Below, in pieces: positions 3,879-46,657 of a stretch of DNA of 64,000 nt. The notes beneath the pieces are model-generated. The model was not told where the DNA came from and did not search any database. It saw nothing but the letters and a program-made list of their open reading frames with translations. The position numbers were made by a program, and so were the translations under genes. The stretch's first letter is position 1, and each line of letters begins with the position of its first letter. This stretch comes from Cellulomonas sp. 73-145. GTDB lineage: Bacteria; Actinomycetota; Actinomycetes; Actinomycetales; Cellulomonadaceae. The stretch lies in contig MKTI01000001.1 of NCBI GenBank assembly GCA_001898185.1, positions 170,999-234,998 on the forward strand, given 5' to 3'.

Positions 3879-4051
3879 CGCGCCACCTCCGTTGTGTCCA
3901 CCTGCACGACGACCGGACCGATCGTCGTGCCGACCGGGTACGTCCCGGAGTCGGCGCGAAGCGGGCCGACCGCCGCACCGATCCCGAGGCCGGCGAGCAG
4001 GGCGAGCGCCAGCACCAGGGCGAAGGCCGCCAGTCGGCCCGCGTCGCTCAT
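3875..4051 (-). CDS. Small membrane protein between copZ and copA
   Basis: This 58-residue protein overlaps the copZ stop (ATGA, 4048-4051) and the copA start (ATGA, 3875-3878). It has one hydrophobic segment (residues 8-30, rich in A, L and G) followed by an extracytoplasmic tail of about 28 residues. No metal-binding Cys, Met or His cluster is visible beyond the initiator. The tight coupling on both sides argues strongly that it is a real gene. Its function is unknown; a role assisting CopA or anchoring CopZ is conjecture. Confidence 0.75.
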
Positions 4052-4272
4052 GACAGCGCGCCGGTCAGCTCGTACCCGACCTCGGCTACCGCAAGGGCGA
4101 CCTGGGTCGTTTCCAACGGTGCTGCTGAGGTGACCGTGACGGTCGAGACGCCGTCCGGCACAAGCTCGATCTCCACCCGGGTGACGCCCTCGAGCCGGCC
4201 CACCTCGCGGGACACCGACCCGACGCAGTGCCCGCACGTCATGCCCTGCACCTGGTACGTCGTCGTGCTCAT
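4048..4272 (-). CDS. copZ: Copper chaperone CopZ-like (HMA domain)
   Basis: This 74-residue protein is a single heavy-metal-associated ferredoxin-like domain. It carries the metal site GMTCGHC (Cys13, Cys16) and the typical beta-alpha-beta spacing ([12 protein letters not shown]). CopZ proteins carry Cu(I) in the cytoplasm to CopA and CsoR. It is the first gene of the copZ-membrane protein-copA-csoR operon. Its promoter region holds a CsoR-like dyad and a response-regulator-like direct repeat. Confidence 0.92.
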
Positions 4273-24330: not shown

Positions 24331-24775
24331 GGTGACCTCCGATCCCCCATTGGTCCCAGGGTCGAGCGGCGCCAGCGTCCAGGGGGCCGGCAGCCGATGT
24401 TCTGTGGACGACACGGCCCCTCATAAGCGGGTGTGCGGAATCGGCGAAAGACGCGACGCCGAAGTCCGCTGCGCCGCGTGATCACCGGGCCCTCCCGGCG
24501 CGCCACCTCCCTCCCCCGCCGGCCATCCACCCGGCCCTTCCGCACCCGACCCCTCCGCACCCGACCCCTCCCACTCCCCCGCCCCCCACAGCACCTGCCG
24601 ACCCGCCCCGCCGCCATCGACCTACCCGGCCCACCTGCCATCAACCCGCTAGACACCTCTGGCACCCGGGCTCTCGGTCCGGCCGTCGCCGTCGCGTGTT
24701 TCGGCGGATCCGCGCTCCCGCTGATGTGGGGACATGCGCGCACGGCGGGCCGAGGTGGGGTGGTCGGCAGTGGTG
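24331..24775. other. Divergent intergenic region, candidate oriT
   Basis: This 445-bp gap separates the hypothetical pair from the MobF relaxase. It has a strongly pyrimidine-rich strand (about 24485-24600) and a perfect 15-bp tandem repeat, CCGCACCCGACCCCT, at 24540-24554 and 24555-24569. oriT sites of MobF relaxases usually lie next to the relaxase gene, so this is the likeliest place. No nic site could be identified. Confidence 0.35.
24540..24569 (+). repeat. 15-bp tandem direct repeat
   Basis: Two exact copies of CCGCACCCGACCCCT side by side in the region before the relaxase gene. It could be an accessory-protein site of oriT, or simple sequence. Confidence 0.6.
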
Positions 24776-27700
24776 ATGACGATGCACCGGCTATCCGCTG
24801 GGGCGGGGTACCGGTACCTGCTGCGGCAGGTCGCCACCGGTGACTGCCAACGCACCGGACCGGCACCGGTGACGGCGTATTACCTGGAGTCGGGCAACCC
24901 GCCCGGCCGTTGGCTCGGCCGCGGCCTAGCCGGCCTGACCGACCCCACCACCGACCCCTCGGTGCTCTCTGCGGGCGCCGTCGTCGAGGAAGTGGGGATG
25001 TCGCGGCTGTTCGCCCACGGACTGAACCCGCTCACCGGTGTCCCGCTGGGGCGCGCCTACCCCGCTGTGATCTCGCCCGCCGACCGCGTTGCCGCCCAGG
25101 TCAAGGCCCTACCTGCGGACATGTCACCGCCGGCCCGGCAGGCGGCGATCGAGGCGATCACCCGGGTGGAGCTGGGCCGGGACACCTCGCCGGTGGTCGC
25201 CGGGTTCGACCTGACGTTCACCGCGATGAAGTCCGTCTCCACCCTGTGGGCCGTGGCCGACGAGACGACCCGGCAGGCCGTCACCGACGCGCACGCCGCG
25301 GCGGTCGCGCAGGCGATGGACGTCCTGCAGGGCCGCGCCCTATACACCCGGACCGGGCACTCGGGGTGTCGGCAGGAGTCGACGCTGGGGGCGGTCGCGG
25401 TGGGGTTCGACCACTGGGACTCCCGGGCGGGTGACCCGAACCTGCACACCCACGTGGTGCTCGCCAACAAGGTCCAGGGTCGCGACGGTGCGTGGCGGTC
25501 GGTGGACTCCCGCGCCTTGCACCACGCGGTCGTCGCGGTCTCCGAGGCCTACAACGGGTTCCTGGTCGATGAGCTGTCCCGCCGGCTGCCCGTGGGGTGG
25601 GGGTGGCGGTCCCGGGGGGCGCACCGGTCGTTGGCGTTCGAGCTGGACGGGATCAGCGATGAGCTGATGACGGCGTTCTCCCAGCGCACCAGCCAGATCG
25701 ACGAGGCCATGACCGCCGCCGTGGCCGGGTTCGCCGCCGGGCACGGGCGGGCGCCGAACCGGATCGAGATCACCCGCCTGCGTCAGCAGGTCACCCGCGC
25801 CACCCGCCCCGCCAAACGGGTGTCACCACTACGCGAGCTGCTCACCAGGTGGCGGCGGCGGGCCGCGGATGTCACCGGAATGTCACCGCACGAGATCACC
25901 GCCGCGGTCCTTCGTCACTCGCAGGTGCGACCGGTCCAGGCGCGGGCCGTTCCGGGCGTGGTCATCAACGACCTGGCCGATCAGGTGCTGGCCGGGGTGC
26001 GCGAACGACGCTCGACCTGGACCCGGTGGAACGTGTTCTCCGAAGCCGCACGCGTCACCCGCGCGCTGATCACTACCTCCCCGGCCGACCGGCTCCAGCT
26101 TCTGGACGCGATCACCGACGCAGCGTTGGGCCGGTGCATCAGCCTGGAGGCCCCGGCCGTGCTTCAAGCGACCGGCCGGTACGCCCGCCCCGACGGGGGC
26201 ACAGTGTTCGACCGGCCCGACGAGCACACGTTCACCGACGCCGTCATCCTCGACGCCGAAACCCGCCTCCTGGACGCCGCCACCGACCTCACGGCCCCCA
26301 CCGCTCCTGTGTTCGACGATGCCCTGGCCCTCCCCGGCGACACCGACGACTTGCTCGCGGACGACCAGGTCGAGGCGGTCCGTTCGATCGCGGGATCCGG
26401 CCGGTTGGTCGACCTGCTGGTCGGCCCCGCCGGGTCGGGCAAGACCACCACGCTGGCTACCGTCCGCACGATCTGGGAACGGACCCACGGGCACGGGTCC
26501 GTGATCGGGCTCGCGCCGTCCTCGACCGCGGCGGCCAACCTCGCCGGAGCGTTGGGCATCAGCTGTGAGAACACCGCCAAGTGGCTGCACGAGTCCACCG
26601 GCCCCGGCGCCACAACCCGGGCCGCCGTCATCGACCAGCTGACCACGCTGCGGGAACACACCGGCGGGACGGACCTGACCCGGCTGCGGACCATCGACAC
26701 CGCCCTGGCCGACTACCACCGCCAGCAGCAGCACTGGACCCTGCAACCGGACCAGCTGCTCATCGTGGACGAGGCATCCCTGGCCGGGACCCTCGCCCTG
26801 GACGAGCTGACCCGCCAAGCCACCGCGGCGGGGGCCAAGATGCTGCTCGTCGGGGACCACGCCCAGCTGTCCGCCGTCGACGCCGGCGGCGCATTCGGAC
26901 TGCTCGCCACCCGCACCGGCGGAGCCCGGCTACGCAGCCTGTGGCGATTCACCCACCCCTGGGAAGCAGCCGCCACCACCGCCCTGCGCGACGGCAACCC
27001 CCGTGTCCTCGACACCTACCAGGAGGCCGGGCGGATCCACGCCGGGCCCGGGGAATCGATGCTCGAGGAGGCCTACACCGCCTGGTCGACCGACGTGACC
27101 GCCGGCTACACCACCGTCCTGCTCGCCCCCGACACCACCACCGTCACCGCCCTGAACACCCGCGCCCACAACGACCGCGTCCAAGACGGGCTCGTCGCCC
27201 CCAGCGGCCTGACCACCCGCACCGGGACCACCATCGGCGTCGGAGACCGGATCGTCACCCGCCTCAACGACCGACACCTGAAGACCGCCCGCGGGTACGT
27301 GCGCAACGGGGACCTTTGGGACGTGCACCACATCGACCCCGACGGGTCCCTCACCGTCGCCCCCGCACGAACCCGGCTGGCCCGCCGCGGCGTCGTCGGC
27401 ACCCCCGGCTCACAAGACAGCGACCCGGTCGTGCTGCCCGCGGCGTACGTCGCCGACCACGTCGAGCTGGCCTACGCCACCACCACGCACCGCGCCCAAG
27501 GCATCACCGTCGACCGGGCTCACGTGCTCACCCACGCCGGCATGACCCGCGAGAACCTCTACGTCGCCATGACCCGCGGCCGCGAGGCCAACCACCTCTA
27601 CGTCGCCACCGACACCCTCGACACCGACTGCGACACCCTGCCCGACCCACACGCCGGCCTCGACGCCCACGACATCCTCACCCGCGTCCTGGCCACCACC

Positions 27701-28333
27701 GGCGCCGAACAGTCCGCCACCACCACCATCGCCGCCCGGCAAGACCAGGCCACATCCCTGCGACGGCTCGAACCAATCGCCCGCACCCTGTACGCGGACG
27801 CCGCCCAAACCCGATGGACCCACGCCCTGGCCGACCTCGGGATGACGGAACCGGCCATCGACCGACTGACGCGCTCCCCCGACGCCGGACGCGTGTTCAC
27901 GACCCTCGACGTCCTCACGACGCTTGCGCCGGACCCAGAAGCAATTCTCGTCAGCCTCATCACGGCCCTCGATCCCCAAACGGAGCCCGCGCCCGCGCTG
28001 CTGTCTGGCGCTCGGGCGTACCTGGACCGGCACGGCGACGAAGCCCACGACATCTGCGCAGTCCCGGACGCCACCGGACTCGACCCGGCCGGGCGGGACC
28101 TACTCGCCCAGGTCAACCAGCTCATCGACGAACGGCAGCAGGCACTGACCCACGCAGCCCTCCAGACCCACCCGCACTGGCTGGACAGACTCGGGCCCGA
28201 ACCCGTGAACCCAGCCGCTCACGCCGCCTGGCTCGCCGAGATCACCACCACCACCGCCCACCACGACCGGCTGCCCACCGGAGCCACCACCCGGGGTACC
28301 GGCGCCAACTCAAGCCCGCCCATCTCACGCTAG
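24776..28333 (+). CDS. MobF-family conjugative relaxase/helicase (TrwC/TraI-like)
   Basis: This 1185-residue protein nicks oriT and unwinds the transferred strand. The start at ATG 24776 gives the typical N-terminus MTMHRLSAGAGYRYLLRQV. The relaxase domain (about 1-330) has the three-His metal site around LHTHVVLANKVQ. A helicase domain follows with Walker A (VGPAGSGKTTTLATV), Walker B (LLIVDEASLAG), GDHAQLSAVDAGG and the C-terminal UvrD-like motifs (TTTHRAQGITVDRAHV and NLYVAMTRGREANHLY). Length and order match MobF relaxases of actinobacterial elements. It is followed by a small gene 12 bases on. Confidence 0.95.
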   Translation: MTMHRLSAGAGYRYLLRQVATGDCQRTGPAPVTAYYLESGNPPGRWLGRGLAGLTDPTTDPSVLSAGAVVEEVGMSRLFAHGLNPLTGVPLGRAYPAVISPADRVAAQVKALPADMSPPARQAAIEAITRVELGRDTSPVVAGFDLTFTAMKSVSTLWAVADETTRQAVTDAHAAAVAQAMDVLQGRALYTRTGHSGCRQESTLGAVAVGFDHWDSRAGDPNLHTHVVLANKVQGRDGAWRSVDSRALHHAVVAVSEAYNGFLVDELSRRLPVGWGWRSRGAHRSLAFELDGISDELMTAFSQRTSQIDEAMTAAVAGFAAGHGRAPNRIEITRLRQQVTRATRPAKRVSPLRELLTRWRRRAADVTGMSPHEITAAVLRHSQVRPVQARAVPGVVINDLADQVLAGVRERRSTWTRWNVFSEAARVTRALITTSPADRLQLLDAITDAALGRCISLEAPAVLQATGRYARPDGGTVFDRPDEHTFTDAVILDAETRLLDAATDLTAPTAPVFDDALALPGDTDDLLADDQVEAVRSIAGSGRLVDLLVGPAGSGKTTTLATVRTIWERTHGHGSVIGLAPSSTAAANLAGALGISCENTAKWLHESTGPGATTRAAVIDQLTTLREHTGGTDLTRLRTIDTALADYHRQQQHWTLQPDQLLIVDEASLAGTLALDELTRQATAAGAKMLLVGDHAQLSAVDAGGAFGLLATRTGGARLRSLWRFTHPWEAAATTALRDGNPRVLDTYQEAGRIHAGPGESMLEEAYTAWSTDVTAGYTTVLLAPDTTTVTALNTRAHNDRVQDGLVAPSGLTTRTGTTIGVGDRIVTRLNDRHLKTARGYVRNGDLWDVHHIDPDGSLTVAPARTRLARRGVVGTPGSQDSDPVVLPAAYVADHVELAYATTTHRAQGITVDRAHVLTHAGMTRENLYVAMTRGREANHLYVATDTLDTDCDTLPDPHAGLDAHDILTRVLATTGAEQSATTTIAARQDQATSLRRLEPIARTLYADAAQTRWTHALADLGMTEPAIDRLTRSPDAGRVFTTLDVLTTLAPDPEAILVSLITALDPQTEPAPALLSGARAYLDRHGDEAHDICAVPDATGLDPAGRDLLAQVNQLIDERQQALTHAALQTHPHWLDRLGPEPVNPAAHAAWLAEITTTTAHHDRLPTGATTRGTGANSSPPISR

Positions 28334-29017: not shown

Positions 29018-29200
29018 ATGGCTCAGGCCAACACTCTGGCGCCGGACTCCTCGATCGCCCAGGCGGTCAACGAAGTGTTCGCTGACGTCCAGGCCGGCTT
29101 CGTCAACCGGCACAACGAACCGGCGATGACCACGCCCGCCATCGTCTACGAGGCGGCCGTCACGGTGGTCGCCGGCAGCACCATCTGCCTGATCTGCTGA
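29018..29200 (+). CDS. linA: Linaridin (cypemycin-type) precursor peptide
   Basis: This 60-residue peptide starts at ATG 29018 after AAGGGGG. Its C-terminus, GSTICLIC, is nearly identical to the GSTICLVC end of the cypemycin precursor as I recall it. The leader ends EPAM followed by TTPA, compared with TPAM followed by ATPA in CypA. By analogy the leader is residues 1-37 and the core Thr38-Cys60, 23 residues long. Thr38, 39, 49 and 55 would be dehydrated to dehydrobutyrine. Cys57 and Cys60 would form the C-terminal aminovinylcysteine ring. The five genes downstream are of types found in linaridin clusters, which makes the assignment strong even though the peptide is short. Confidence 0.9.
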   Translation: MAQANTLAPDSSIAQAVNEVFADVQAGFVNRHNEPAMTTPAIVYEAAVTVVAGSTICLIC

Positions 29201-29223
29201 GTCCTCGGCGGTTGGCGACACCA

Positions 29224-29285
29224 CCCTCCGCGTCGGCGTGCCTCTCCCGACGTACCTGTCGCGTGAGTGCCGCCGGCGCGGAGGG
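29224..29285 (+). terminator. Attenuator-like hairpin after precursor gene
   Basis: CCCTCCGCG (29224-29232) pairs perfectly with CGCGGAGGG (29277-29285), with further GC pairing possible inside the loop. It lies between the precursor and the first enzyme gene, so it may reduce read-through and keep precursor RNA in excess, as in many RiPP operons. Confidence 0.5.
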
Positions 29286-29385
29286 GCGTCTTGCACATCT
29301 GGCATACGACCCACGGTTTGTGACGGGCTTCCAGATCGTTCCGGAGCTGTCCGTCGTTGTAGTCGGCTTCGCCAAGGGGGACCAC

Positions 29386-30237
29386 GTGAGTACTGGAACG
29401 TTGACGTCGCGGCATGCCGTCCTAGGTGAGGTTCGGACGGAAGATGCTCGGTACTGGGCGATGGCGCCCGCTGCCGTCGGAGAAGTAATCGACGCACTTG
29501 AGGCGCTGACCCACATCACTGACTACGGGCCGGACACCATCCTGCGGGGACGGGCCGCGATGGTTCCCTCGCACTTCCTCCCGGTGGCGGTGCGCCGCGC
29601 ACTAGACACAACTGGCGGACTGGTCGTGCTCAAGCTCGCGAGCCTGGCAGGAGCCGGTTCGGTGCTCCTGGGACGGCGGAGCCGCACAGCTCAGATAGCG
29701 GGCGCCGGCCTGATCTTCTCTTCGCGGTGGCTCGGCGACCTACGGAATCCCTACGGTCGCGATGGGTCCGACCAGATGAGCGGGCTGATCGCCGGCTACC
29801 GGCTGGTCACCGCTGCGGTCCCGAACGCCGAAGCGTCCGACGACCTGTTTCTTCGTGCGGTCAGCGCCCAGACGTTCGTCTCATACCTGGCCTCAGGTCT
29901 GGCCAAGCTCGTCGGAAGCAGCTGGCAGTCCGGAGAAGCGTTGGATCAGGTGCTGCAGACCCGGCAGTACGGGCAAAGCCCCGCGGCGCGTCTCATCCGT
30001 GAGCACCCGCCGCTCGCCAGGCTGCTGACCTGGTTCACGATCGCCTGGGAGACCGGGTTCCCAGTGGTCTACCTCCTGCCGCCGAACCGGGCGCGCCTAG
30101 CGCTGACCGGCGTGAAGGCATTCCATCTGGGTATCGCCGCCACCATGGGTCTTCCCCGGTTCTTCTGGGGCTTCTCGTCAGCGCACGCGGCAGTCGAGTA
30201 CGTGATCGCACAGAAGCGGGGCGGCCATGACCGTTGA
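29386..30237 (+). CDS. linL: Linaridin LinL-like HTTM membrane protein
   Basis: This 283-residue protein starts at GTG 29386, with GGGGG five bases upstream; the frame is open further back to 29212 but without a ribosome site. It has several hydrophobic helices and the HTTM (vitamin K carboxylase-like) region SGLAKLVGSSWQSGEALDQVL, followed by WFTIAWETGFPVVYLL and FHLGIAATMGLPRFFWG. In known linaridin clusters a membrane protein of this type (CypL/LinL) is needed with LinH for the early core modifications. It overlaps linH by 11 bases. Confidence 0.82.
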   Translation: MSTGTLTSRHAVLGEVRTEDARYWAMAPAAVGEVIDALEALTHITDYGPDTILRGRAAMVPSHFLPVAVRRALDTTGGLVVLKLASLAGAGSVLLGRRSRTAQIAGAGLIFSSRWLGDLRNPYGRDGSDQMSGLIAGYRLVTAAVPNAEASDDLFLRAVSAQTFVSYLASGLAKLVGSSWQSGEALDQVLQTRQYGQSPAARLIREHPPLARLLTWFTIAWETGFPVVYLLPPNRARLALTGVKAFHLGIAATMGLPRFFWGFSSAHAAVEYVIAQKRGGHDR

Positions 30238-31138
30238 AAGGCAGGCCGCCGCCGTATTCTTCACCGCGCTCGGCGTCAGTGCAGCTGTCGCTCAGATCCG
30301 TCAAGAGGAGGACTTCGCCCGTCGCGCCGGCCTCAAAGGCACCTCGGTCATCACCGATCCGGAGGGGCGCGCAATCGAGTACAAGTACGTGGCGCCCGAC
30401 GGACCGACGCGGGCCGTTGCGGTGCTCGAGAACGGGCTGGGCGCCGCACTCGAAGGGTGGGACTGGGTCACCCGAGAACTCAGGAAGCAAGGCATCGGAG
30501 TCCTGACCTACCATCGGCGCGGTTACGCCCGCACCAAGAGCCAGAAGCGGCCGGCCCAGCTGCTTGAGCAGCTCCTGCGCCAGTGCGCCCCAGAGGGTCC
30601 GGTCCTCTTCGTCTCGCACTCGATCGGCGCGCTGATCACCGCGAACGCTCTCGCCGAGTCGGCCTATCTACGAGATCGCGCCGCTGGCGCGGTGGTCGTT
30701 GACGGCACCGATGCCGACTTGCTGGCGGAGGACCGGCGTTCCCCTCAACGACTGGGCCGCTTTCGTCAGAGCACAGTCCTGGAGATCCTCGGCAGCGTCA
30801 CCGGTCTGAATCGGTGGGTCCAGTCCCCGACCGAGCGCGATGTGGAGTACGTCCCGGACGTGCAGCGCGCATTCCTGACGACCGGTTCAGCGCCGACGAC
30901 GCTCCTGGCGGCCCATCGCGAGTACCGGACAGAGCCGACGAGCGGACAAGCCGCGCTGGCGGCCTCCGGTCTCCCAGCGACGGTGCTGGCAGCGGCCGAC
31001 AACATAGAGCAGCAGCGGGAGCTGGCCACCAAGCTCGGCGCGAAGTTCGAGGTGATCGAGGCCAGCAGCCACCGCTCGATTATCGGCCGACCCGCTTGTG
31101 CGCATGACGTCTGCGAAGCTGTCGGGAGGATGCTGTGA
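30227..31138 (+). CDS. linH: Linaridin LinH-like alpha/beta hydrolase protein
   Basis: This 303-residue protein has a hydrophobic N-terminal segment (about residues 7-22) that could anchor it in the membrane, then an alpha/beta hydrolase domain. The nucleophile elbow is SHSIG (Ser132), with the first Gly changed to Ser. A likely acid lies in VVDGTDADLL and a C-terminal His in SSHRSIIGRP. LinH proteins (CypH, GrmH) are required for core modification, and a cofactor-independent epimerase role has been reported for relatives. It is coupled to linL and to the next gene by overlaps. Confidence 0.82.
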   Translation: MTVERQAAAVFFTALGVSAAVAQIRQEEDFARRAGLKGTSVITDPEGRAIEYKYVAPDGPTRAVAVLENGLGAALEGWDWVTRELRKQGIGVLTYHRRGYARTKSQKRPAQLLEQLLRQCAPEGPVLFVSHSIGALITANALAESAYLRDRAAGAVVVDGTDADLLAEDRRSPQRLGRFRQSTVLEILGSVTGLNRWVQSPTERDVEYVPDVQRAFLTTGSAPTTLLAAHREYRTEPTSGQAALAASGLPATVLAAADNIEQQRELATKLGAKFEVIEASSHRSIIGRPACAHDVCEAVGRML

Positions 31139-31677
31139 GCCGACTTCGAGTTGCCCTCCTCACACTCGCTCAGTCCGCGCTGGTCGCCCACATCGTCGTG
31201 ACTGCTTTCGAGAACCTGCCACCGAATCAGGTCTCGCTCGGCATGCGGCTTCCGGTGTTCAAGAAGATTCCCCAATGGCGGTTCTTCGCGCCGAATCCTG
31301 GTGTCGAGGATATCTACCTGATGTACCGCACGCGTGAGGGCGAGCAGATCGCGTGGAGTCCCTGGCAGGACCTGCCACTGCAGTCGAAGAGCTCAACGAC
31401 CGCGATGATCTGGAACCCCGGCACGCGCAAGGCGAAGGCCCTGTTCGACGCGACCCAGCAGCTGCGCATCCTTGCTGGCTACGGCTCGTCGTTCGAGTGG
31501 ATGGTGTCCAGCGACGGGTTTCACCTGGTGTCCGACGTCGTTCGCGCGACATGCGTCGCGAGCAAGGATCGAGGCGAGTACCAGTTCATGATCGTCGCCT
31601 CGATGCCCGCAGAGGGCAAAGCCGGCCTACGCCCGATCCTGGTCTCTCCCGCTGCACCGGTGCCAGCCCGTGGCTGA
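31135..31677 (+). CDS. Linaridin-cluster protein of unknown function
   Basis: This 180-residue protein starts at GTG 31135, overlapping linH (GTGA). It has one N-terminal hydrophobic segment (about residues 5-25) and a soluble part containing IPQWRFFAPNPGVEDIYLMY. The W-x-FAPNP block resembles small proteins encoded next to HTTM membrane proteins, so it may be a partner of LinL. I see no catalytic motif. Its position inside the coupled operon argues for a role in linaridin maturation. Confidence 0.7.
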   Translation: MSRLRVALLTLAQSALVAHIVVTAFENLPPNQVSLGMRLPVFKKIPQWRFFAPNPGVEDIYLMYRTREGEQIAWSPWQDLPLQSKSSTTAMIWNPGTRKAKALFDATQQLRILAGYGSSFEWMVSSDGFHLVSDVVRATCVASKDRGEYQFMIVASMPAEGKAGLRPILVSPAAPVPARG

Positions 31678-32263
31678 CGAACTGTTGACCGCAGCCACCG
31701 CTCGACCGGACTTCACGCCGCGTCGGCTGATGCTCTTTGTCACGGGATCGATCAACGCCGCGCTCGTACCACACTGGCTGACATGGCTGCGGCACCTCTA
31801 CCCCGACGTGGTGTCCAGCATCGTCGTGACCCGCTCGGCCGAACGGTTCGTCACCCTCGACGCGCTGCGTGCAATCACCACGGGAAGTGTCTGGCGCGAC
31901 TCGTGGGACGAAGAGCTGCCCGGCGGGTCGTACATGGGTCTGGAGACAGAGGCGGACGCGTTCGGGGTCTTCCCAGCAACGCTGGACTTCGCGATGAGGC
32001 TGGCTTCGGGGTTCACCAACACACCGATGCTGATGACCCTGCAGTGCACCGAGAAGCCGATCGGCATCGCCAGTACCTTCCCGGGCACAAACCCGGTGAT
32101 CGAAGCCCAGCTAGCGCTCCTACGCAACCGCCCGAACCTGAGATTCGTCGAGACGATGCCGGCGTTCAGCCTCGGTAAGGGTGCCTGGGCCGGAAGCACC
32201 GGCTTCCACCTACCCGCGTTGCTGCAGACACTCCAACAGCTCGTGAGCGAGCGGGCGTCCTAG
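31670..32263 (+). CDS. linD: Flavin-dependent Cys decarboxylase, LinD/CypD-like
   Basis: This 197-residue protein starts at GTG 31670 with an 8-base overlap. It fits the HFCD family of FMN-dependent cysteine decarboxylases (EpiD, CypD): an N-terminal LMLFVTGSINAALVPHWL flavin-binding start, VFPATLDFAMRLASG where the family has PASANT, and TFPGTNPVIEAQLALLRNRPNLRF as in the substrate loop. These enzymes oxidatively decarboxylate a C-terminal Cys to give the enethiol used for aminovinylcysteine. The precursor's terminal Cys60 is the expected substrate. The usual catalytic His of the H-x2-L-x3-AD motif is Tyr88 here (YMGLETEAD). Confidence 0.8.
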   Translation: MADELLTAATARPDFTPRRLMLFVTGSINAALVPHWLTWLRHLYPDVVSSIVVTRSAERFVTLDALRAITTGSVWRDSWDEELPGGSYMGLETEADAFGVFPATLDFAMRLASGFTNTPMLMTLQCTEKPIGIASTFPGTNPVIEAQLALLRNRPNLRFVETMPAFSLGKGAWAGSTGFHLPALLQTLQQLVSERAS

Positions 32264-32284
32264 GTCTCGGAAGAGGGAGGCGCT

Positions 32285-33772
32285 GTGAAGGTCGTCGTCG
32301 TCGGTTCAGGGCCGAATGGGCTGGCTGCGGCCATCACGCTGGCTCGTGCTGGTGCCGAAGTCGTCGTTCTCGAGGCCGAAGCTGTCCCGGGTGGGGGCGT
32401 TCGCACGCTCGACCTCCACCTCGCGGAGGGGCTGCGTCACGATCTTTGCTCAGCGGTGCACCCCCTGGCGTGGGCTTCGCCGTTCTTTGCTGAGTTCGAC
32501 CTCCCGGCCCGTGGTGTGCAACTGCTGGCCCCCGAGGTTTCCTTTGCGCATCCTCTGGACGGCGGGCGCGCCGCTGTGGCATATCGGGATCTGAGTGAAA
32601 CAGCGGCCGGTCTGGGGCCGAGCGGTCGAGCCTGGATGCGCTTGTTCGCGCCACTGGTAGAGCGCTGGCCCTTGCTCGTAGGCAACTTGCTCAGTGACAT
32701 GCGGCGGCTTCATGGGCCGTTGAGGCCCGGGACGCTCGCGACGCTGGCCCGGTTCGGCATCGGCGCCGTTCGCCAGGGCGGGGTCCTGCCGGCACTGCGC
32801 GAGGAAGCGGCGGCCTTGTTCGGAGGAGTGGCGGCGCACTCGATGGGTCGTTTGCCGTCCCTTCCCGCGGCGGGCGTCGGGCTGATGCTCGCCACCCTGG
32901 GACACACTCCGGGTGGGTGGCCGATTCCGCACGGCGGGTCGGGGACGATCGTCGCGGCCATGATCTGGGATCTGGAGACACACGGCGGCAGACTCTTCAC
33001 CGAGACGCGGGTCGAGACCCATCGCGATCTACCCCCGGCTGATGCGTACGTGTTCGACACGACCCCGTCGCATGTGGCGCGAGTGTTCGAGGACCAGCTC
33101 AGGCCGCGGAGCCGCCGCCGGCTTCTCGCATTCCGGCACGGCGCCGGTGTGGCAAAGGTCGACTTCGTCCTGTCAGGCCCGGTGCCCTGGACGCACGCAG
33201 ACGTCGCTCGTGCTGGAACCGTGCACGTCGCCGGCACACCTGCGCAGATGGCCGCTGCCGAAGCAGATGTGGCCCGTGGCCGCCACGCCGAGCGGCCGGT
33301 GTGCCTGGTGAGCGACCCTGCGGTGGCAGATCCTTCCCGTGCGGTGGGCGGCCTCCGGCCGCTGTGGAGTTACGCCCACGTCCCGGCCGGATCCCCAGGC
33401 GACGTGACCGCAGACGTCACCGCGCAGATCGAGCGCTTCGCGCCCGGATTCCGAGACGTCGTCTTGGCATCCCGATGCATTCCAGCGGCTCAGATGGCCC
33501 AACACAACGCGAACTACGTCGGTGGCGACATCGCAGGCGGAGCGATGTCGCTGCGACAGGTCGCCGCTCGTCCGGCCGCGTCCTGGGACCCCTACGCGGT
33601 GAGCGGACTAGATGGGGTCTATCTCTGCTCCGCCTCCACCCCGCCGGGTCCCGGCGTGCACGGCATGGGTGGCCTGGGAGCTGCCCGAAGCCTGCTTCGC
33701 CGCTTCAGCCAGCGGGTTCCCGATCTGTCTCCCGACCAGCGCGAGGCCGCTATACGCGGACGGGGGCTCTAG
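32285..33772 (+). CDS. Phytoene-desaturase-like FAD oxidoreductase
   Basis: This 495-residue protein starts at GTG 32285 after GGGAGG. The N-terminal dinucleotide-binding motif is VVVVGSGPNGLAAAITLARAG followed by VVVLEAEAVPGGG. The C-terminal FAD motif includes GLDGVYLCSASTPPGPGVHGMGG. It belongs to the NAD(P)/FAD-dependent amine oxidase/CrtI-like group. Related oxidoreductases occur in some linaridin clusters, but their step is not established. Here it could modify the core or reduce dehydroresidues. It ends tail-to-tail with the exporter permease, sharing CTAG. Confidence 0.85.
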   Translation: MKVVVVGSGPNGLAAAITLARAGAEVVVLEAEAVPGGGVRTLDLHLAEGLRHDLCSAVHPLAWASPFFAEFDLPARGVQLLAPEVSFAHPLDGGRAAVAYRDLSETAAGLGPSGRAWMRLFAPLVERWPLLVGNLLSDMRRLHGPLRPGTLATLARFGIGAVRQGGVLPALREEAAALFGGVAAHSMGRLPSLPAAGVGLMLATLGHTPGGWPIPHGGSGTIVAAMIWDLETHGGRLFTETRVETHRDLPPADAYVFDTTPSHVARVFEDQLRPRSRRRLLAFRHGAGVAKVDFVLSGPVPWTHADVARAGTVHVAGTPAQMAAAEADVARGRHAERPVCLVSDPAVADPSRAVGGLRPLWSYAHVPAGSPGDVTADVTAQIERFAPGFRDVVLASRCIPAAQMAQHNANYVGGDIAGGAMSLRQVAARPAASWDPYAVSGLDGVYLCSASTPPGPGVHGMGGLGAARSLLRRFSQRVPDLSPDQREAAIRGRGL

Positions 33773-35268
33773 AGCCGGCGAAGGCGACGGCGCAGGCCAA
33801 GGACGAGCAGCGCAACGACGACCAGGGCGAAGACCAAGAGGCGCACTGGTGACCCCGCCGCCGCGACGGCGAGTGCCCCGGCCACCATGGCGATGATGAG
33901 CGCATCGGCCTCCCAGAGGGAGACATTGACAGAGGATAGATCGCCGATCGGGCTTGGCATAGGCGTCAGAAGAACGACAGGAAGAGGCCCCTTGGCGCTG
34001 TCGTAGGCACGGGCCAGCACCACAAGGATCAGCACCACGCATACCGGCAGCAGTCGCATGCCGATGCCGAGAGCGGACGCGCTGACCGCGCCCAACGCAG
34101 CCGCGACGGCAGCACCGGCCAAGGGGGCCACGCCGTGGCGGGAGAACAGCGCCGGGGTTCCGTAGCCGTAAAGCGCTGGGGCCACGGCTGCGTCGGTGGC
34201 GTGACGAAACCCGTCGGCGAGCACTCCCACTGCTAGGTATGCCCCCGTCGCGCCCACCGAGGCCAGGACCCACCCGGCCGGCAGGCTCGAGGCGAGGGCC
34301 AGCGTGATGACCGCTGCGACGAGAGTGACGATCCCGACGAGCAGCCGCACGGGCGTGCGCGCCGCACCGACCATGTCCCGCACCAGGAACACAGCTATGG
34401 ACGGCCCACCACGGACGGCTGACCACCGACGACCGACCGACGGGCGTGCCCGCAAGCTTCCTAGCGCGTGCGCGACGTCACCGGAGAGAGCGGCAGTGGT
34501 GGCTGCTCGCCATCGCGTCGCGTCGTCCGTAAGCCGTGAGCTCCGCAGGCGGTCCAACAGGGGCCGCGTTGCCACGACGGCGAGAGCAGCCACCACACCT
34601 AGGGCCAGATCGGTGGTTGCGGGCGGCCCTGCAATGGGTGGCCACGCGGCTGCGACCCAACCCCACGGAAGCCATCGGCCGAACCCAGGGAGCGCTAGGC
34701 CGAGTAGTGCCAGCGCTGTCGTCAGCGCTCCGGCGAGCCCGGCAACTCGCTGAGAGGTCGCTTGGCCGGCGAGCCAGGCAACCGCAGCCATAACCGCGAA
34801 CATCGCGCACAAAGCCGTGAATCGCGCCGCACCCGCCAGGCTTGCGAACCCGCCGTTCACAAGCACACCGCCGAACAGCGCTGCCGCCATCAGCGCAACG
34901 CCTACGACAGCCGCTGCCTTGATGGCGAACGGGCGGCTCAGCGTCCGGTGCCGCGGAAGGTCGGTGTCTGCCAGCAGGCGCACAAACGCGGGCTCGAGGG
35001 TGACCGGGCCGTACAGCACGCCGAGCCACATGAGAGCTGCCATGAGCAGCCCGAGCACCATGCCCACCGTGGGGACACTGCTGGGGCCGACCAACGCTGC
35101 CAGTACGCGCGAACCGCTGAGTGCTAGCACGATCGTTCGGACGACCGGGAAGACAACCAGTGGTGCCAGTAGCGCGGCCAGGTACACGTTATATGCCACG
35201 TCTGACCGGCTCCCCCGGTCACCGCGGGAGTGGTACGCGCGCCGCAAGATGACGAGTCGCTCAGCCAC
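33769..35268 (-). CDS. Multi-pass ABC exporter permease
   Basis: This protein of about 500 residues has roughly twelve hydrophobic segments and no ATPase domain. I favour GTG 35268, which has GGAG 11 bases upstream and overlaps the ATPase gene stop by eight bases; ATG 35289 would overlap more and lacks a ribosome site. It pairs with the ATP-binding protein encoded just upstream. Together they probably export the linaridin or confer self-protection. The sequence is not close to any permease family I recognise. Confidence 0.72.
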   Translation of the reverse strand: MAERLVILRRAYHSRGDRGSRSDVAYNVYLAALLAPLVVFPVVRTIVLALSGSRVLAALVGPSSVPTVGMVLGLLMAALMWLGVLYGPVTLEPAFVRLLADTDLPRHRTLSRPFAIKAAAVVGVALMAAALFGGVLVNGGFASLAGAARFTALCAMFAVMAAVAWLAGQATSQRVAGLAGALTTALALLGLALPGFGRWLPWGWVAAAWPPIAGPPATTDLALGVVAALAVVATRPLLDRLRSSRLTDDATRWRAATTAALSGDVAHALGSLRARPSVGRRWSAVRGGPSIAVFLVRDMVGAARTPVRLLVGIVTLVAAVITLALASSLPAGWVLASVGATGAYLAVGVLADGFRHATDAAVAPALYGYGTPALFSRHGVAPLAGAAVAAALGAVSASALGIGMRLLPVCVVLILVVLARAYDSAKGPLPVVLLTPMPSPIGDLSSVNVSLWEADALIIAMVAGALAVAAAGSPVRLLVFALVVVALLVLGLRRRLRRL

Positions 35269-35914
35269 CGTAGCCGTCGCTCCGGTCATCAAGCGTCAGC
35301 GTCTGGTCGGTGAGTCGCTTAACGAGGTGTTGGCTGTGGCTCGCGAGCACGACGGTGGCGCCAGCGGCCTGGCGGCGGCTGAGCGCGTCGCCGACCAGGC
35401 TGAGCCGGTCGGCGTCCAGGCGCTGCTCCGGCTCGTCCAACAGCAGGATGCGGAACGGTCGCGCGAGAGTGACGGCCAGGACGTATAGCTGGGTCTGACC
35501 AGACGACAACTCGTGCGGAAACCGGGACTCGAGCCGGGCGATTCCCAGTTCGTCGAGGAGATTGCCTGCGTCCCTTTCCGCGAGCGGCTGGTCGACGCCC
35601 CAGGAGATCCCGATGAGCGTCAGGTACTCGCGCAGGGTGAGGTTCCGGGCGAGAGGCGGCACGCCAAGCAACGCCGCCACGGTCGAACGGAAACCCGGAC
35701 GGCGCTCGTCGGGCGTGCCGCCTCCGACGGTGACGGTTCCCGACGAGGGTGAAGTCAGTCCCGCGAGAACGCGCAAGAGCGTGGTCTTGCCCGAGCCGTT
35801 CGGCCCGACGACGGCCAGCGTGCGGCCGGCCTCAAGCTCAAAGCTCACCGGAGGCAGGAGGCTGACATCGCCGACCGTGACGCCGACATCCTCCGCGACG
35901 ACCGCCGCGGTCAT
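35261..35914 (-). CDS. ABC transporter ATP-binding protein (linaridin exporter)
   Basis: This 217-residue ATPase starts at ATG 35914, overlapping the HTH gene stop (ATGA). It has Walker A (GPNGSGKTT), the signature region as ELSSGQTQLY, Walker B (ILLLDEPEQRLD) and the switch region VVLASHSQH. It is coupled upstream to an HTH regulator and downstream to the permease, forming a three-gene regulator-exporter operon opposite the biosynthetic operon. Confidence 0.88.
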   Translation of the reverse strand: MTAAVVAEDVGVTVGDVSLLPPVSFELEAGRTLAVVGPNGSGKTTLLRVLAGLTSPSSGTVTVGGGTPDERRPGFRSTVAALLGVPPLARNLTLREYLTLIGISWGVDQPLAERDAGNLLDELGIARLESRFPHELSSGQTQLYVLAVTLARPFRILLLDEPEQRLDADRLSLVGDALSRRQAAGATVVLASHSQHLVKRLTDQTLTLDDRSDGYGG

Positions 35915-36426
35915 GATGCCGGTGTCCCTGCGGCGACGAGGATCGCGAGCAGCGGAACCACTCGCGCTGGAGGAACGTCGAATGCCCCGCGCCGCGGCGA
36001 GAACAACCACCCGGCCGTCGTAAGTTCCTTCAGGTGGTGGTAGATCTGTCCCGAAGTTCCGGCGTCGAGTTCATCTACAAGTGCAGTTGCGGTCGTGACT
36101 CCTCGCAACACGGCCTGCAGCATGCGCAGTCGCACAGGGCTACCCAAGGCAGTCAGTTGACCGGCGAGGTCGGCCCACTCGCGGTCGAAGATGTCCGCGG
36201 CCGCCTCCCCGTACTGCCAGCGCAAGGTCTTGCCGTGGGGCGTTCGCACGCTGCCCGCGTACAAGACCGCACCGTGCGGGGCTCGAACCTCGATGCCGTT
36301 CAGGGCCCACAACGGGTCGGCCGCCGACGAGTCGCTGGAAGGCAACTCGCTCATCCGACGCGCGACCAGGTCCGCCACCGTCCTCTCGAGTGCGGCCATG
36401 CGCGTCTCGATGTCATCGCTCGCCAC
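35911..36426 (-). CDS. ArsR-like winged-helix transcriptional regulator
   Basis: This 171-residue protein has an N-terminal coiled stretch (residues 1-30), a central beta-rich part (GAVLYAGSVRTPHGKTLRWQYG) and a C-terminal winged helix: LGSPVRLRMLQAVLRG, then TSGQIYHHLKELTTAGWL. The recognition-helix pattern is ArsR/HTH_20-like. No metal ligands are seen. It is the first gene of the regulator-exporter operon and probably controls it, and perhaps the linaridin genes. Confidence 0.8.
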   Translation of the reverse strand: MASDDIETRMAALERTVADLVARRMSELPSSDSSAADPLWALNGIEVRAPHGAVLYAGSVRTPHGKTLRWQYGEAAADIFDREWADLAGQLTALGSPVRLRMLQAVLRGVTTATALVDELDAGTSGQIYHHLKELTTAGWLFSPRRGAFDVPPARVVPLLAILVAAGTPAS

Positions 36427-36648
36427 GCCATCACTCTACGCTAAGACGTAATACCGTCGGTTCGGGACTGTCGCGCCGGCCGCCACCCGGAGGCGGCGGC
36501 CGGCGTGCCCGGGCTCACGGGAGCCGCGATGGCCTGCTCGTGATGTGCGCAGATTCATAGCCAAACGAGCAACGCTGATGACCGGGGACCGTCTACGGTG
36601 CTGGCGCCGGGCCCGAAGACGGCGCCGGCGCCACAGGGGGCTGATGCT

Positions 36649-37340
36649 GTGATCCGAGTCCTGATAGCTGACGATCAAGAGGTCATACGACGCGGCTTCA
36701 GACTGTTCCTTAAACCGGCGCACGACATCGAGGTGGTCGGTGACGCACCCGACGGGCTGCAAGCGGTCAAGAGGCGCACGAGCTCAGGGCGGACGTCGTG
36801 CTCATGGACGTGCGCATGCCTGGAGGAGACGGGATCGAGGCGACCCGAACTCTCGCGGGCCCAGGCGTCTTGGATCCGGTCGCGGTCATCGTCGTGACCG
36901 CGTTCGATCTTGACGAGTACATCTTCGGAGCACTCGATGCCGGCGCATCAGGGTTCCTGCTCAAAGATGCGGGCCGAGCCGTCCTCACGGAGGCCGTGCG
37001 AGCTGCTGCTCGCGGCGATGCAGTGGTCTCCCCGACGGTGACTCCCCGCGTCATTGCTGAGTTTGCGCGCCGGCAGACAGGCGAACGTGGCGGGAGCGCC
37101 GACCGAGCCGCAGACGTCGCCGCCGCCGGCCTGACGGCCAGGGAGCAGGAGATAATCCGGGCACTGGCGCGTGGCATGAACAACGCCGAGATCGCCAGGC
37201 ACCTCCATCTCGTCCCCGGGACAGTGAAAACACACCTGACGCGAATCAACGCGAAGATTGGTACTCGGGATCGACTGCAGATCGCAATCTGGGCCTTCGC
37301 CCACGACCTCGTGCAGCCGGACAACGTTCCCCGTTATTGA
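36649..37340 (+). pseudogene. LuxR-family response regulator with single-base frameshift
   Basis: From GTG 36649 the frame encodes a receiver start (VIRVLIADDQEVIRRGFRLFL) up to about 36770. The remainder (LMDVRMPGGDGIEATRT onward, then a LuxR HTH with LTAREQEIIRALARGMNNAEIA and GTVKTHLTRINAKI) lies in another frame to 37340. Restoring one base at AAGAG near 36770 (AAGGAG expected) would give the normal VKEAHELRADVVLMDVRMP. It is an orphan NarL-type regulator with no kinase nearby. It is either truly broken or carries a sequencing error. Confidence 0.85.
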
Positions 37341-40528: not shown

Positions 40529-41641
40529 ATGCGAACTGATCGATCGGTTCGGGAGGTGGTGGCAGGCTCGGCGGTGTCGGTGTTGGCGTCCGAGGTGTCG
40601 TTCCTCGCCCCGGAGGAGGCGGTTTTGGAGGCGATGCTGGCGGGCTGGGTCGCGCAGCAGACGTCGCGCCTCTTGGCGGCGACGACGATCGAGCAGCGGT
40701 TGTTGTTGGTGCGTCGGCTGGTCGCATTCACCAACGCCTACCCGTGGACGTGGACCCCGGGCGATGTCGAGGAGTGGACGACCGCGCTGGTCAGTCGGGG
40801 TCTGGCGCACTCGACGCTGCGCAACTACCAGATGGCGGTGCAGTTGTTCTGCGGGTACGTCACCGATCGCCGCTACGGCTGGGACGAGGTGTGCGAGCAG
40901 CGGTTCGGCACGCATCCGGTGCAGGTCTTCCACGAGTGGAACACCGCCGTGCACCGCGACCAGAGCGAGGCGCGGCCGGGGAATCGTCCGTTGAGTCGCC
41001 CGGAGCTGCAGCGGTTCTTCGACTACTGCGACGAGCGGGTGGTGACGGTGGGTAGGTCCGGGCGCAAGGGCTGGCTGGCGGCGTTCCGTGACGCGGCGTT
41101 GTTCAAGACGGTGTACGCCTTCGGGCTGCGCCGACGCGAGGCGGCGATGCTGGACCTGGCCGACCTGTCGCCGAACGCGCACGCCGAGCAGTTCGGCCGG
41201 TACGGCGCGGTCTCGGTGCGTTACGGCAAGGCGATGAAGGGCGGCACGCCGCGCCGGCGCACCGTACTGACCACGATGGGCTGGGCCGCCGGCACCCTCG
41301 CGGAATGGGTCGAGGAGATCCGCCCGGGTTACGCCTCCGCGTCGACGACGTTGTGGCCAACTGAGCGGGGCGCAGCCATTTCGACCGATCACATCAACGC
41401 CCGGTTCGCCGCTTACCGCGACCAGTGCGGTTTGCCGCGCGAGCTGGGACCGCACTGCCTGCGCCACTCGTACATCACGCACCTGATCGAGGACGGGTTC
41501 GATCACCTGTTCGTCCAGCAGCAGGTCGGCCACTCCTGGGGGTCAACCACAGCCGGGTACACGTCAGTCGGCTCGGACTACAAGAACCGGGCGCTGCGTC
41601 GGGCCCTGAGCCCGGCGTTCACCGGTCCGGCTACGCCGTGA
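40529..41641 (+). CDS. Tyrosine recombinase/integrase
   Basis: This site-specific recombinase is 370 residues from ATG 40529 (384 from the in-frame start at 40487). An N-terminal SAM-like core-binding domain (about residues 15-130) precedes the catalytic domain. Active-site residues are visible: Arg in YAFGLRRREAAML, Lys in RYGKAMKGG, His-x-x-Arg in HCLRHSYIT, the second His in VGHSWGSTTAGY and the nucleophilic Tyr of that motif. It is the likely integrase of the element that split ardC. Its stop overlaps the start of the XRE gene. Confidence 0.93.
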   Translation: MRTDRSVREVVAGSAVSVLASEVSFLAPEEAVLEAMLAGWVAQQTSRLLAATTIEQRLLLVRRLVAFTNAYPWTWTPGDVEEWTTALVSRGLAHSTLRNYQMAVQLFCGYVTDRRYGWDEVCEQRFGTHPVQVFHEWNTAVHRDQSEARPGNRPLSRPELQRFFDYCDERVVTVGRSGRKGWLAAFRDAALFKTVYAFGLRRREAAMLDLADLSPNAHAEQFGRYGAVSVRYGKAMKGGTPRRRTVLTTMGWAAGTLAEWVEEIRPGYASASTTLWPTERGAAISTDHINARFAAYRDQCGLPRELGPHCLRHSYITHLIEDGFDHLFVQQQVGHSWGSTTAGYTSVGSDYKNRALRRALSPAFTGPATP

Positions 41642-45010: not shown

Positions 45011-46657
45011 ATGACTAGCTACACGAGCCCCACACCAGCGCAGCGGGAGACCGCGGTTCTTGACTCCGCGCACCTCGGCGACATCGAAGGCGCGTTCGGT
45101 ACGATCCGCCAAGGTGACGACGCTCCGCGTCCTCGGCTCTCGATGAAGATGCGCACGCTGCTCGCCATCGTCGGCCCCGGGCTGATCGTCATGGTCGGTG
45201 ACAACGACGCCGGAGCTTTCGGCACCTACACCGAAGCCGGACAGAACTACGGCACACGGCTGCTGTGGACTCTGCTCCTGCTCGTACCGGTGCTCTACGT
45301 CAACCAGGAGATGGTGCTGCGCCTGGGCGCGGTCACCGGGGTTGGCCATGCACGGCTGATCCTGGAGCGGTTCGGCAAGTTCTGGGGCGCATTCAGCGTC
45401 ATCGACCTGTTCATCCTCAACGCGCTCACGATCGTCACCGAGTTCATCGGCATCAGCCTGGGTCTGCGCTATCTGGGGATCGCCCAGGTCCCGGGGGTGA
45501 TCATGGCTGCTGTCGTGGTCATCGCGGCGGTGAGCACCGGGTCGTTCAAGCGGTTCGAGCGCGTGAGCATGGTCTTGGTCGCCGGATCGCTGCTGCTGAT
45601 ACCGATCTTCTTCATGGTGCACCCGGGCATGGGTCAGATCGCTCACAACATCCTGATCCCCGGCATGCCACCGGGGGCCCAGCTGTCGACCGTGATGCTG
45701 CTCATCATCGGGATCGTCGGCACCACGGTTGCGCCGTGGCAGCTGTTCTTCCAGCAGTCCTACGTCATCGACAAGCGCATCACCCCCCGGTTCATGAGCT
45801 ATGAGAAGGTCGATCTGTGGATCGGGATCGTCATGGTCATCGTCGGCGCCGGCGCGATCATGACGTTCACCTACACGACGTTCGTGGGGCATCCCGAGTT
45901 CGGCGCCTTCACCGACGCGCTCGGGGTCGCGAAGGGACTGGGCGCCTACGTGAGCCCCGTGGCCGGTGTCCTTTTCGCGATCGCGCTGATCGACGCCTCG
46001 ATCATCGGAGCATCAGCGGTCGGTCTCTCGACGTCGTACGCGATCGGTGACGTGCTCGGCCTTCGGCACTCCTTGCACCGCAAGCCACGCGAGGCCAAGG
46101 GCTTCTATGCGGTCTTCGCCGGGTTGCTCGTCGTCGCCGCCGCGGTCGTGCTGATCCCGGGCAGCCCGCTTGGCCTGCTCACCGTGGGTGTCCAGACCCT
46201 CGCCGGGGTGCTGCTTCCCTCGGCGACGGTGTTCCTGCTGCTGCTGTGCAACGACAACCAGGTCCTCGGGCCGTGGGTCAACGGCCGGTGGCTGAACCTG
46301 TTCACCGCGCTGGTCATCGCCGTGCTCGTGATGATGTCCATCGTGCTCACCGCAAGCGTCCTGTACCCGGCCATCACTGCCGGGACCATCCTGGGGATCC
46401 TCGGTGGTGGCAGCGCGATCACCGTTGCGGTCGGCACGGGCCTCGCGATCCACCGGCGTCACCATCCACCGACCGACGTGGCGGCGCCGGTCGACCGCAG
46501 CCTTCGGGCGGGCTGGCGGATGCCGCCCCTGGCCCTGCTCGCTCGCCCCGAGATCTCGGCAAGCAGGCGCGTCGGGCTCACCGTGCTGCGCACCTATCTT
46601 CTGATTGCGATGGCGCTGGTGGTAGTCCGGGTCGTCCAGCTGGCTCTCGGACAGTGA
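45011..46657 (+). CDS. Nramp-related Mg2+ transporter (NRMT-like)
   Basis: This 548-residue membrane protein starts at ATG 45011 after GGAGGG. It has about eleven hydrophobic helices. The TM1 metal motif, DPGN in ordinary Nramp proteins, is GDNDAGAF, and the TM6 region reads TTVAPWQLFFQQSYVIDKR instead of carrying the Met-containing motif. These are the changes expected for Nramp-related magnesium transporters. Control by an M-box riboswitch supports Mg2+ uptake rather than Mn2+/Fe2+. It is probably co-transcribed with the MgtE-N/CBS gene 67 bases on. Confidence 0.88.
   Translation: MTSYTSPTPAQRETAVLDSAHLGDIEGAFGTIRQGDDAPRPRLSMKMRTLLAIVGPGLIVMVGDNDAGAFGTYTEAGQNYGTRLLWTLLLLVPVLYVNQEMVLRLGAVTGVGHARLILERFGKFWGAFSVIDLFILNALTIVTEFIGISLGLRYLGIAQVPGVIMAAVVVIAAVSTGSFKRFERVSMVLVAGSLLLIPIFFMVHPGMGQIAHNILIPGMPPGAQLSTVMLLIIGIVGTTVAPWQLFFQQSYVIDKRITPRFMSYEKVDLWIGIVMVIVGAGAIMTFTYTTFVGHPEFGAFTDALGVAKGLGAYVSPVAGVLFAIALIDASIIGASAVGLSTSYAIGDVLGLRHSLHRKPREAKGFYAVFAGLLVVAAAVVLIPGSPLGLLTVGVQTLAGVLLPSATVFLLLLCNDNQVLGPWVNGRWLNLFTALVIAVLVMMSIVLTASVLYPAITAGTILGILGGGSAITVAVGTGLAIHRRHHPPTDVAAPVDRSLRAGWRMPPLALLARPEISASRRVGLTVLRTYLLIAMALVVVRVVQLALGQ

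Follow-up and report, generated by a model that had tools for sequence, protein, structure and literature searches.

Characterised linaridins are all said to carry an alpha-N-dimethylation introduced by a locally encoded methyltransferase, and in cypemycin this N-terminal dimethylation is reported to be essential for activity (PMC10373908). A reported exception is corynaridin, a type-B linaridin of Corynebacterium lactis, whose cluster is without this methyltransferase, LinM, and whose product is not dimethylated (PMC9927463). A further cluster, from Brevibacterium sp. 239c, has been published with homologues of cypH, cypL, cypD and cypT (PMC5719810). A published count, cited in PMC9927463, puts linaridin clusters at 561. 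We analysed a stretch of 64,000 nucleotides from Cellulomonas sp. 73-145 (contig MKTI01000001.1; hereafter the window). Judged from its sequence, the segment 29018-36426 is a type-A, i.e. aminovinyl-cysteine (AviCys), linaridin cluster with a complete-looking gene set; it is a variant without LinM, and its core peptide is new. By analogy with other peptides, we propose with moderate confidence that its product is a LinM-free type-A linaridin with a 2-oxobutyryl keto cap at the N-terminus, matured by the route set out below.

Gene content and comparison with known clusters

The cluster comprises the following genes.
29018-29200, plus strand: LinA, precursor of 60 residues with leader MAQANTLAPDSSIAQAVNEVFADVQAGFVNRHNEPAM and predicted core TTPAIVYEAAVTVVAGSTICLIC (NF033752, 85.2 bits; alignment with 14 relatives)
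29386-30237, plus strand: LinG, the HTTM (membrane) part of LinH, encoded separately in the window (fused in 10 of 14 type-A loci; predicted vitamin K-dependent carboxylase-like fold; K174 in 35 of 35)
30227-31138, plus strand: LinE, the alpha/beta-hydrolase part of LinH, likewise encoded separately, its start overlapping LinG (PF12697, expectation value (E) 5e-10)
31135-31677, plus strand: putative LinL-type protein with an N-terminal helix and a PxWRFFAPNP motif, DUF5819-like (gene conserved beside LinG/LinH; alignment; PF19136 matches)
31670-32263, plus strand: LinD, CypD-type flavin-dependent peptidyl-cysteine decarboxylase (NF033753, E 5.5e-47; 6jdd, E 5.3e-40)
32285-33772, plus strand: flavin adenine dinucleotide (FAD)/NAD(P)-dependent oxidoreductase, CrtI/CrtO-like (PF13450, E 8e-10; PF01593, E 8e-7)
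33769-35292, minus strand: membrane protein of an ATP-binding cassette (ABC) exporter, likely for export or immunity (adjoins the ATPase in type-A relatives)
35261-36010, minus strand: ABC exporter ATPase (PF00005, E 1e-25)
35911-36426, minus strand: ArsR-type regulator (PF12840, E 1.4e-6)

The gene set and positions given in a preliminary description of this DNA are all present in the sequence, and its call of a type-A linaridin cluster agrees with the families matched by the precursor and the decarboxylase. The product of 29018-29200 matches linaridin_CypA (NF033752) with an E of 2.9e-24 and 85.2 bits, far above the curated cut-off of 35; the preliminary description had staked its precursor on such a match. 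A chance open reading frame (ORF) is ruled out by this score. The precursor has the C-terminus GSTICLIC, its junction PAMTTP fits the motif PxxxTP, and the core ends in CLIC. In a six-frame search of the 3.87-Mb genome, with all 30 candidates scored, 29018-29200 was the single linaridin_CypA place. LinD, already described as an HFCD decarboxylase, belongs to the CypD family (NF033753, 159.5 bits) and matches the solved cypemycin decarboxylase (6jdd). The earlier assignments of an FAD oxidoreductase and of opposite-strand regulator and exporter genes also stand, through the Pfam matches of the enzyme, the ATPase and the regulator; the permease (33769-35292), for which there was no convincing Pfam match, was placed by its conserved position. 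As no lanthipeptide dehydratase or cyclase families occurred among the matches of the cluster proteins, a lanthipeptide cluster was ruled out.

We compared the cluster within a type-A set of 14 loci (the window, L004-L010, L023-L026, L028 and L029; L numbers denote the loci compared). The order precursor-LinH-LinL-LinD is common to the type-A relatives, and the ABC pair precedes or follows it. Thirteen of the 14 loci have LinD; the exception is L028, on whose 5.4-kb contig no linD was seen. Acaricomes phytoseiuli has two different linaridin loci, L004 and L028, and the core of L028 ends in CLAC despite the missing linD. On plasmids, some LinD matches belong to class V lanthipeptide clusters (H1, H6), so LinD alone is no linaridin marker.

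Cypemycin (Streptomyces) shares with the window the precursor family, the PAM/xTP junction, the STICLxC tail and the LinH/LinL/LinD/ABC set. The window differs from it in the absence of LinM, in Thr1 instead of Ala1, in the split LinH and in the extra FAD oxidoreductase; its core differs in the middle and is one residue longer (23 vs. 22). The core of L023 is the same as that of cypemycin. The nearest loci are the two of Acaricomes (identities to L004 of 53% for the precursor, 55% for LinG, 51% for LinE, 54% for LinL and 51% for LinD). On genome data only, L004 and L028 share with the window the split LinH, Thr1 and the lack of LinM on their contigs. In Brevibacterium sp. 239c (L009/L011/L125), Thr1 is likewise present and no LinM was found, but LinH is fused, the core is shorter and no FAD oxidoreductase was seen. 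In the corynaridin cluster, as in the window, G and E are separate genes, LinL and ABC genes are present and LinM is lacking; it differs in having an SDR (short-chain dehydrogenase/reductase) gene, no LinD, no C-terminal Cys and a characterised product (PMC9927463). Two Streptomyces plasmid loci (L078 7731-10079 and L075 7917-10292) have LinG, LinE and LinL beside a class I lantibiotic dehydratase and a lanthionine cyclase; they are possible hybrid lanthipeptide-linaridin clusters.

A scan of contigs of 84,980 species yielded seven relatives of the precursor. The best (Acaricomes) is 53% identical, and the core is therefore new to this collection, as the preliminary description had expected. 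Plasmid records and viral contigs contained no relatives. The linaridin_CypA family is rare: scores above the cut-off were obtained in at least 2 of 297 sampled genomes of the window's order, at least 3 of 392 Streptomyces genomes, at least 3 of 398 genomes of the family to which the Microbacterium locus belongs and at least 2 of 396 genomes in the phylum sample. The query genomes are part of these samples, and the counts are lower bounds because candidates were partly scored in many genomes. Among the 7 same-genus genomes listed, the window's own genome was the only one above the cut-off.

LinM and the first core residue

No match to LinM was found over the cluster span, and the best tblastn match in the whole window had an E of 0.059 over 20 residues. 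The absence of LinM from the window changes the product to be expected. Given the corynaridin exception, LinM was not treated as defining for type A. Within the type-A set, linM lies after linD in four loci (L010, L023 and L024 from Streptomyces, L029 from the same class). The four proteins are 78-96% identical to one another, and the cores start with A, A, A and V. LinM was not found in the other 10 loci, including the window and the Brevibacterium locus, which lies on a cut contig, and all 10 cores start with T.

The same pattern was seen across all scorable loci. Thr1 is present in 11/11 loci without intact LinM (window, L004, L005, L006, L007, L008, L009/L125, L025, L026, L028 and L030) and in 0/19 loci with LinM. 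The cores of the latter start with A (L010, L012, L023, L024, L035, L073, L074, L076, L105, L106, L108, L110, L111 and L112), F (L031 and L072), V (L029), L (L104) or, in L107, A and V. Taxonomy by itself therefore does not determine the LinM/Thr1 state: L012, a LinM-positive Ala1 locus, belongs to the same order as the window. The count leaves out L027 (in-frame stop), L033 and L034 (lanthipeptide clusters) and the loci with an unrecognised precursor (L032, L071, L075, L077, L078, L109 and L113-L121). Second precursor-like ORFs of L031, L072, L073 and L076 lacking the full motif were unscored, L111 was scored by eye as PIM/ATP over the later PAIFTP given by the script, and L073 was counted once, by its first cluster. 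LinG matches were present in 17 plasmid records, 11 of which were fetched (four near-duplicates and two non-actinobacterial records were omitted); a class-wide search gave 25 matches, three of which were already in the set, 18 were fetched and four weak ones were omitted.

The most informative comparison is that of a closely related pair of loci, whose shared genes are 71-85% identical and which differs in both traits: L104 (same class) has an intact linM and the core LTP, whereas L030 (Streptomyces) has frame-broken remnants of linM and the core TTP. The decayed linM of L030 (7055-7558) lies amid otherwise well-conserved linaridin genes. The Thr1 rule was fixed beforehand; 8/8 new LinM-positive loci with a recognised precursor were then without Thr1, and in the Brevibacterium locus, which has Thr1 and whose LinM state was unseen when the rule was fixed, no LinM was found. 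On a tree of LinG, LinE and LinL with 28 tips (two of the 30 scored loci, L009 and L073, are absent here), parsimony gave three changes for each trait. Comparison of dependent and independent trait models resulted in a likelihood ratio of 22.1 (p ~2e-4, approximate, with rates at bounds). Fisher's test on the same 28 loci, with kinship ignored, gave 8e-8.

These data bear on an alternative in which nothing sets the product apart from other type-A linaridins but an N-terminal Thr that stays free and unmethylated (or is not dehydrated); these lineages would just have lost LinM, and Thr1 would be incidental. Corynaridin, which has no LinM, is reported simply as not dimethylated (PMC9927463), and 10 of the 11 Thr1 loci are related type-A clusters. 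However, the separate L030/L104 pair shows the same coincidence of Thr1 with loss of LinM, and 30/30 scorable loci conform to the association. An undehydrated Thr1 would moreover be an exception, since the main form of corynaridin has every Thr dehydrated (PMC9927463). We consider a free Thr1 unlikely, though a serious contender.

Several points weigh against the keto-capped product that we favour. Without LinM, the N-terminus of corynaridin may simply be free. Shared ancestry makes part of the association, which is carried by about three co-changes; the near-identical loci L005/L007 and L006/L026 were counted separately, and the fresh test brought one new LinM-free case only, that of Brevibacterium, as the class-wide fetch added none with a recognised precursor. 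The cut after EPAM is transferred from cypemycin by analogy, and the 159.5 bits of LinD are below the NF033753 equivalog cut-off of 215. In the relatives, cluster regions were read and the contigs of L004, L008 and L028 are short, so that LinM could lie elsewhere in their genomes. A weak methyltransferase-like ORF (E 1e-4) is found near the decayed Thr1 locus L027, and a weak LinM-like match in the window's own genome. The latter touches on the idea that the peptide is N,N-dimethylated by a methyltransferase whose gene lies in another part of the genome. This genome has methyltransferase-like stretches (E 1.8e-7, the best, and 1.7e-4), but the matches are partial (39% over 113 and 35% over 106 residues), and the type-A LinM, where present, sits inside the operon and is well conserved among the four loci. 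We regard a distant methyltransferase as very improbable.

L027 itself (9951-10106) is a second linaridin locus of Microbacterium rhizomatis. Its precursor has an in-frame TGA and only the ABC genes are recognisable, so the locus is apparently decayed.

Proposed maturation and N-terminal cap

In the proposed route, LinG and LinE, i.e. the split LinH, would act with LinL at the membrane to dehydrate core Thr1, Thr2, Thr12 and Thr18, and perhaps to epimerise residues. LinD would oxidatively decarboxylate Cys23, and the enethiol would close onto a dehydroalanine from Cys20, giving the C-terminal AviCys ring. A peptidase would cut after EPAM. The N-terminal dehydrobutyrine (Dhb) freed in this way, which derives from Thr1, would hydrolyse spontaneously to 2-oxobutyryl, and the mature N-terminus would read 2-oxobutyryl-Dhb-Pro... 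This keto cap would take the place that N,N-dimethylation has in cypemycin, making LinM unnecessary. The ABC pair would export the peptide and/or confer immunity, under the ArsR-type regulator. As no amine remains on a 2-oxobutyryl N-terminus, LinM would be useless there, and a keto cap leaving nothing to methylate would explain the mutual exclusion of Thr1 and LinM.

The core start was set at the fourth residue of the PxxxTP motif, by analogy with cypemycin. Corynaridin is processed at a PxxxTP-type junction motif, in line with the assumed start (PMC9927463). For the cap there are precedents in other peptide classes. In rosin A1, an N-terminal 2-oxobutyryl was ascribed to dehydrobutyrine deamination once the leader is removed (PMC12291118), and a thiostreptamide S1T variant has the same group (PMC8153245). 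A limited literature search for 2-oxobutyryl on a linaridin gave only this thioamitide variant (PMC8153245) and the lanthipeptide (PMC12291118).

The keto-capped window product, with four dehydrations and AviCys, has a computed [M+H]+ of 2144.146 ([M+2H]2+ 1072.577). The computed values are 2143.162 for a Thr1 that is dehydrated without deamination, 2161.173 for an intact Thr1 and 2189.204 for an intact Thr1 carrying the dimethyl group; action of the FAD oxidoreductase may shift them by 2 or 16 Da. The same mass arithmetic for cypemycin as a control resulted in 2095.13, in agreement with its known mass. The mass suggested previously, i.e. the core minus four waters and decarboxylated, takes account neither of the H2S lost when AviCys forms nor of the keto cap predicted here.

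Split LinH, putative LinL and the predicted fold of LinG

In 10/14 type-A loci the HTTM protein and the hydrolase form a single ORF, LinH, of 584-628 residues. The two genes are separate in the window and in both Acaricomes loci, L004 and L028; L025 is frame-broken. The window HTTM protein is ~41-55% and the hydrolase 36-51% identical to the type-A relatives. The tree of LinG, LinE and LinL grouped the window, L004 and L028 with 100% support, and thus one fission would explain the split of type-A LinH. The start of the HTTM gene was taken to be 29386, a GTG behind a G-rich ribosome site, and not that of a longer TTG ORF. Sequence matches of its product are weak (PF05090, E 0.032; SdpB TIGR04033, E 3e-4).

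In the corynaridin cluster, G designates the HTTM gene, E the hydrolase gene and L the third gene (PMC9927463). Based on this naming and on the fused LinH gene of the relatives, we rejected the preliminary identification of the HTTM protein as LinL: it is the membrane half of LinH. The hydrolase, previously called LinH, is indeed the hydrolase half, but not LinH alone. The protein of 31135-31677, described before as unknown and anchored, is encoded by the third conserved gene beside those for the HTTM protein and the hydrolase, and its naming as LinL is by elimination rather than by comparison with authentic CypL. A LinL-type gene is present at every locus having a LinG match; loci L104-L119 were fetched by the LinL-type protein and hence excluded as evidence for this co-occurrence. 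Matches to PF19136 (DUF5819) at E <=1 were obtained for 10/12 LinL-type members (best 2e-6). The predicted LinL model gave no usable fold match in the PDB (best E 0.46), and the LinL and LinG profiles no PDB sequence matches up to E 1. In L114-L119 the HTTM gene adjoins a LinL/DUF5819-like gene, while neither a LinE match nor a precursor was recognised. This pair may form a module wider than linaridins (compare the SdpB match of LinG).

The predicted LinG model (predicted local distance difference test score 89.6) resembles the vitamin K-dependent (gamma-glutamyl) carboxylase, GGCX, which took all of fold ranks 1-12 (probability 1.00, query-based template modelling score 0.50-0.62, E from 1e-3 to 2e-2 with no value <1e-3). 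LinG K174, in the stretch YxxxGxxKLxxxxWxxGxA, is invariant in 35/35 aligned sequences, and H247 is kept in 34/35. From the GGCX motif, and not from an alignment, we assume that K174 corresponds to GGCX Lys218. In GGCX, Lys218 starts the formation of a vitamin K superbase, which takes hydrogen from Glu (PMC9146348). As no more than a suggestion, carbanion chemistry by LinG would suit dehydration and epimerisation alike.

The additional FAD oxidoreductase

The FAD oxidoreductase gene begins 22 bases after linD and was found in the window only among the 14 type-A loci. In Acaricomes L004, by comparison, a convergent ABC permease gene lies 7 bases beyond linD, with no FAD oxidoreductase. Enzymes of the same family occur in many type-B-like linaridin loci with similar operons (e.g. 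L031, L074 and L104). The window enzyme is 48-53% identical to these, 39% to the Kocuria one and 56-62% to same-genus copies, against 49-51% to three linaridin enzymes in that same comparison; no PDB sequence match was found up to E 1e-5. In the enzyme tree, 13/14 linaridin-locus enzymes form one clade with 100% support, from which the Kocuria enzyme is excluded. The window enzyme also lies outside this clade, near the same-genus copies with weak support, and its inheritance along with linaridin clusters is thus not supported.

The GC content at third codon positions (GC3) is 0.75 for the FAD gene, 0.75-0.82 for the cluster genes and 0.90 for the precursor. The other called genes of the window have 0.79-0.93, apart from a short doubtful ORF with 0.75, and the same-genus FAD copies 0.89-1.0. 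Because its GC3 is like that of the cluster and the enzyme is outside the linaridin clade, the gene appears to be part of the foreign block but to have been recruited separately. The enzyme possibly performs an extra tailoring oxidation or reduction, or its gene is a hitch-hiker.

Genomic context

A relaxase gene flanks the cluster.
24770-28333, plus strand: MOBF relaxase-helicase TraA/TrwC (PF08751, E 1.7e-77)

The window further contains a phage-type integrase (40556-41641, E 2e-16), the coupling protein TraG/TraD (49479-51287, E 6e-27) and TrbL, a part of a type IV secretion system (55079-56194, E 6e-6). With these parts of an integrative and conjugative element present, the cluster is likely carried on a conjugative element. 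No convincing bounding direct repeats were found within 16-64 kb, where the window end is the contig end, and no tRNA was found in the window. The placement beside a relaxase and among transfer genes, as described earlier, holds; the horizontal spread drawn from it is plausible, judging by sporadic occurrence, a GC3 below that of most flanking genes and the adjacent relaxase.

In a further alternative, a conjugative element would carry the cluster merely as cargo, silent or without function. No sigma-70-like promoters were predicted (0; shuffles 0.4), by a method ill-suited to high-GC actinobacteria, the adjoining response regulator spans two frames, and relatives contain decayed linaridin genes (the L027 precursor with its in-frame stop and the L030 linM). 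On the other hand, the cluster ORFs are open, overlap or are closely spaced, and most are preceded by purine-rich ribosome sites. We hold silent cargo to be improbable.

The response regulator beside the cluster (36646-37340) lies in two frames, and the longer ORF is without the first part of the receiver domain; it is probably broken or mis-sequenced. DNA matches on plasmids point to metal-transport cargo, namely a P-type ATPase (13967-16570) and an NRAMP-type transporter (45011-46657). Tandem repeats of 36 bp (16037-16324) lie near the 5' end of the heavy-metal P-type ATPase-like gene, also by DNA match. More metal-binding-looking ORFs, judged by eye only, are found at 1599-4272.

Implications

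The split LinH and the carboxylase-like HTTM fold with its invariant lysine offer a handle on the dehydration and epimerisation step of linaridins. More broadly, linaridins could have two N-cap chemistries: methylation by LinM of cores without Thr1, and spontaneous formation of 2-oxobutyryl from Thr1 in clusters without LinM. The window would then represent the latter, with an independently recruited FAD tailoring enzyme and on a conjugative element. We advance this wider scheme tentatively, as quite possible though somewhat doubtful. If it is true, a sequence rule predicts both the absence of dimethylation and its replacement, altering the predicted masses for a whole branch of linaridins. 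The altered masses would be a possible reason why such products were missed, and the reactive ketone would provide a handle for their discovery.

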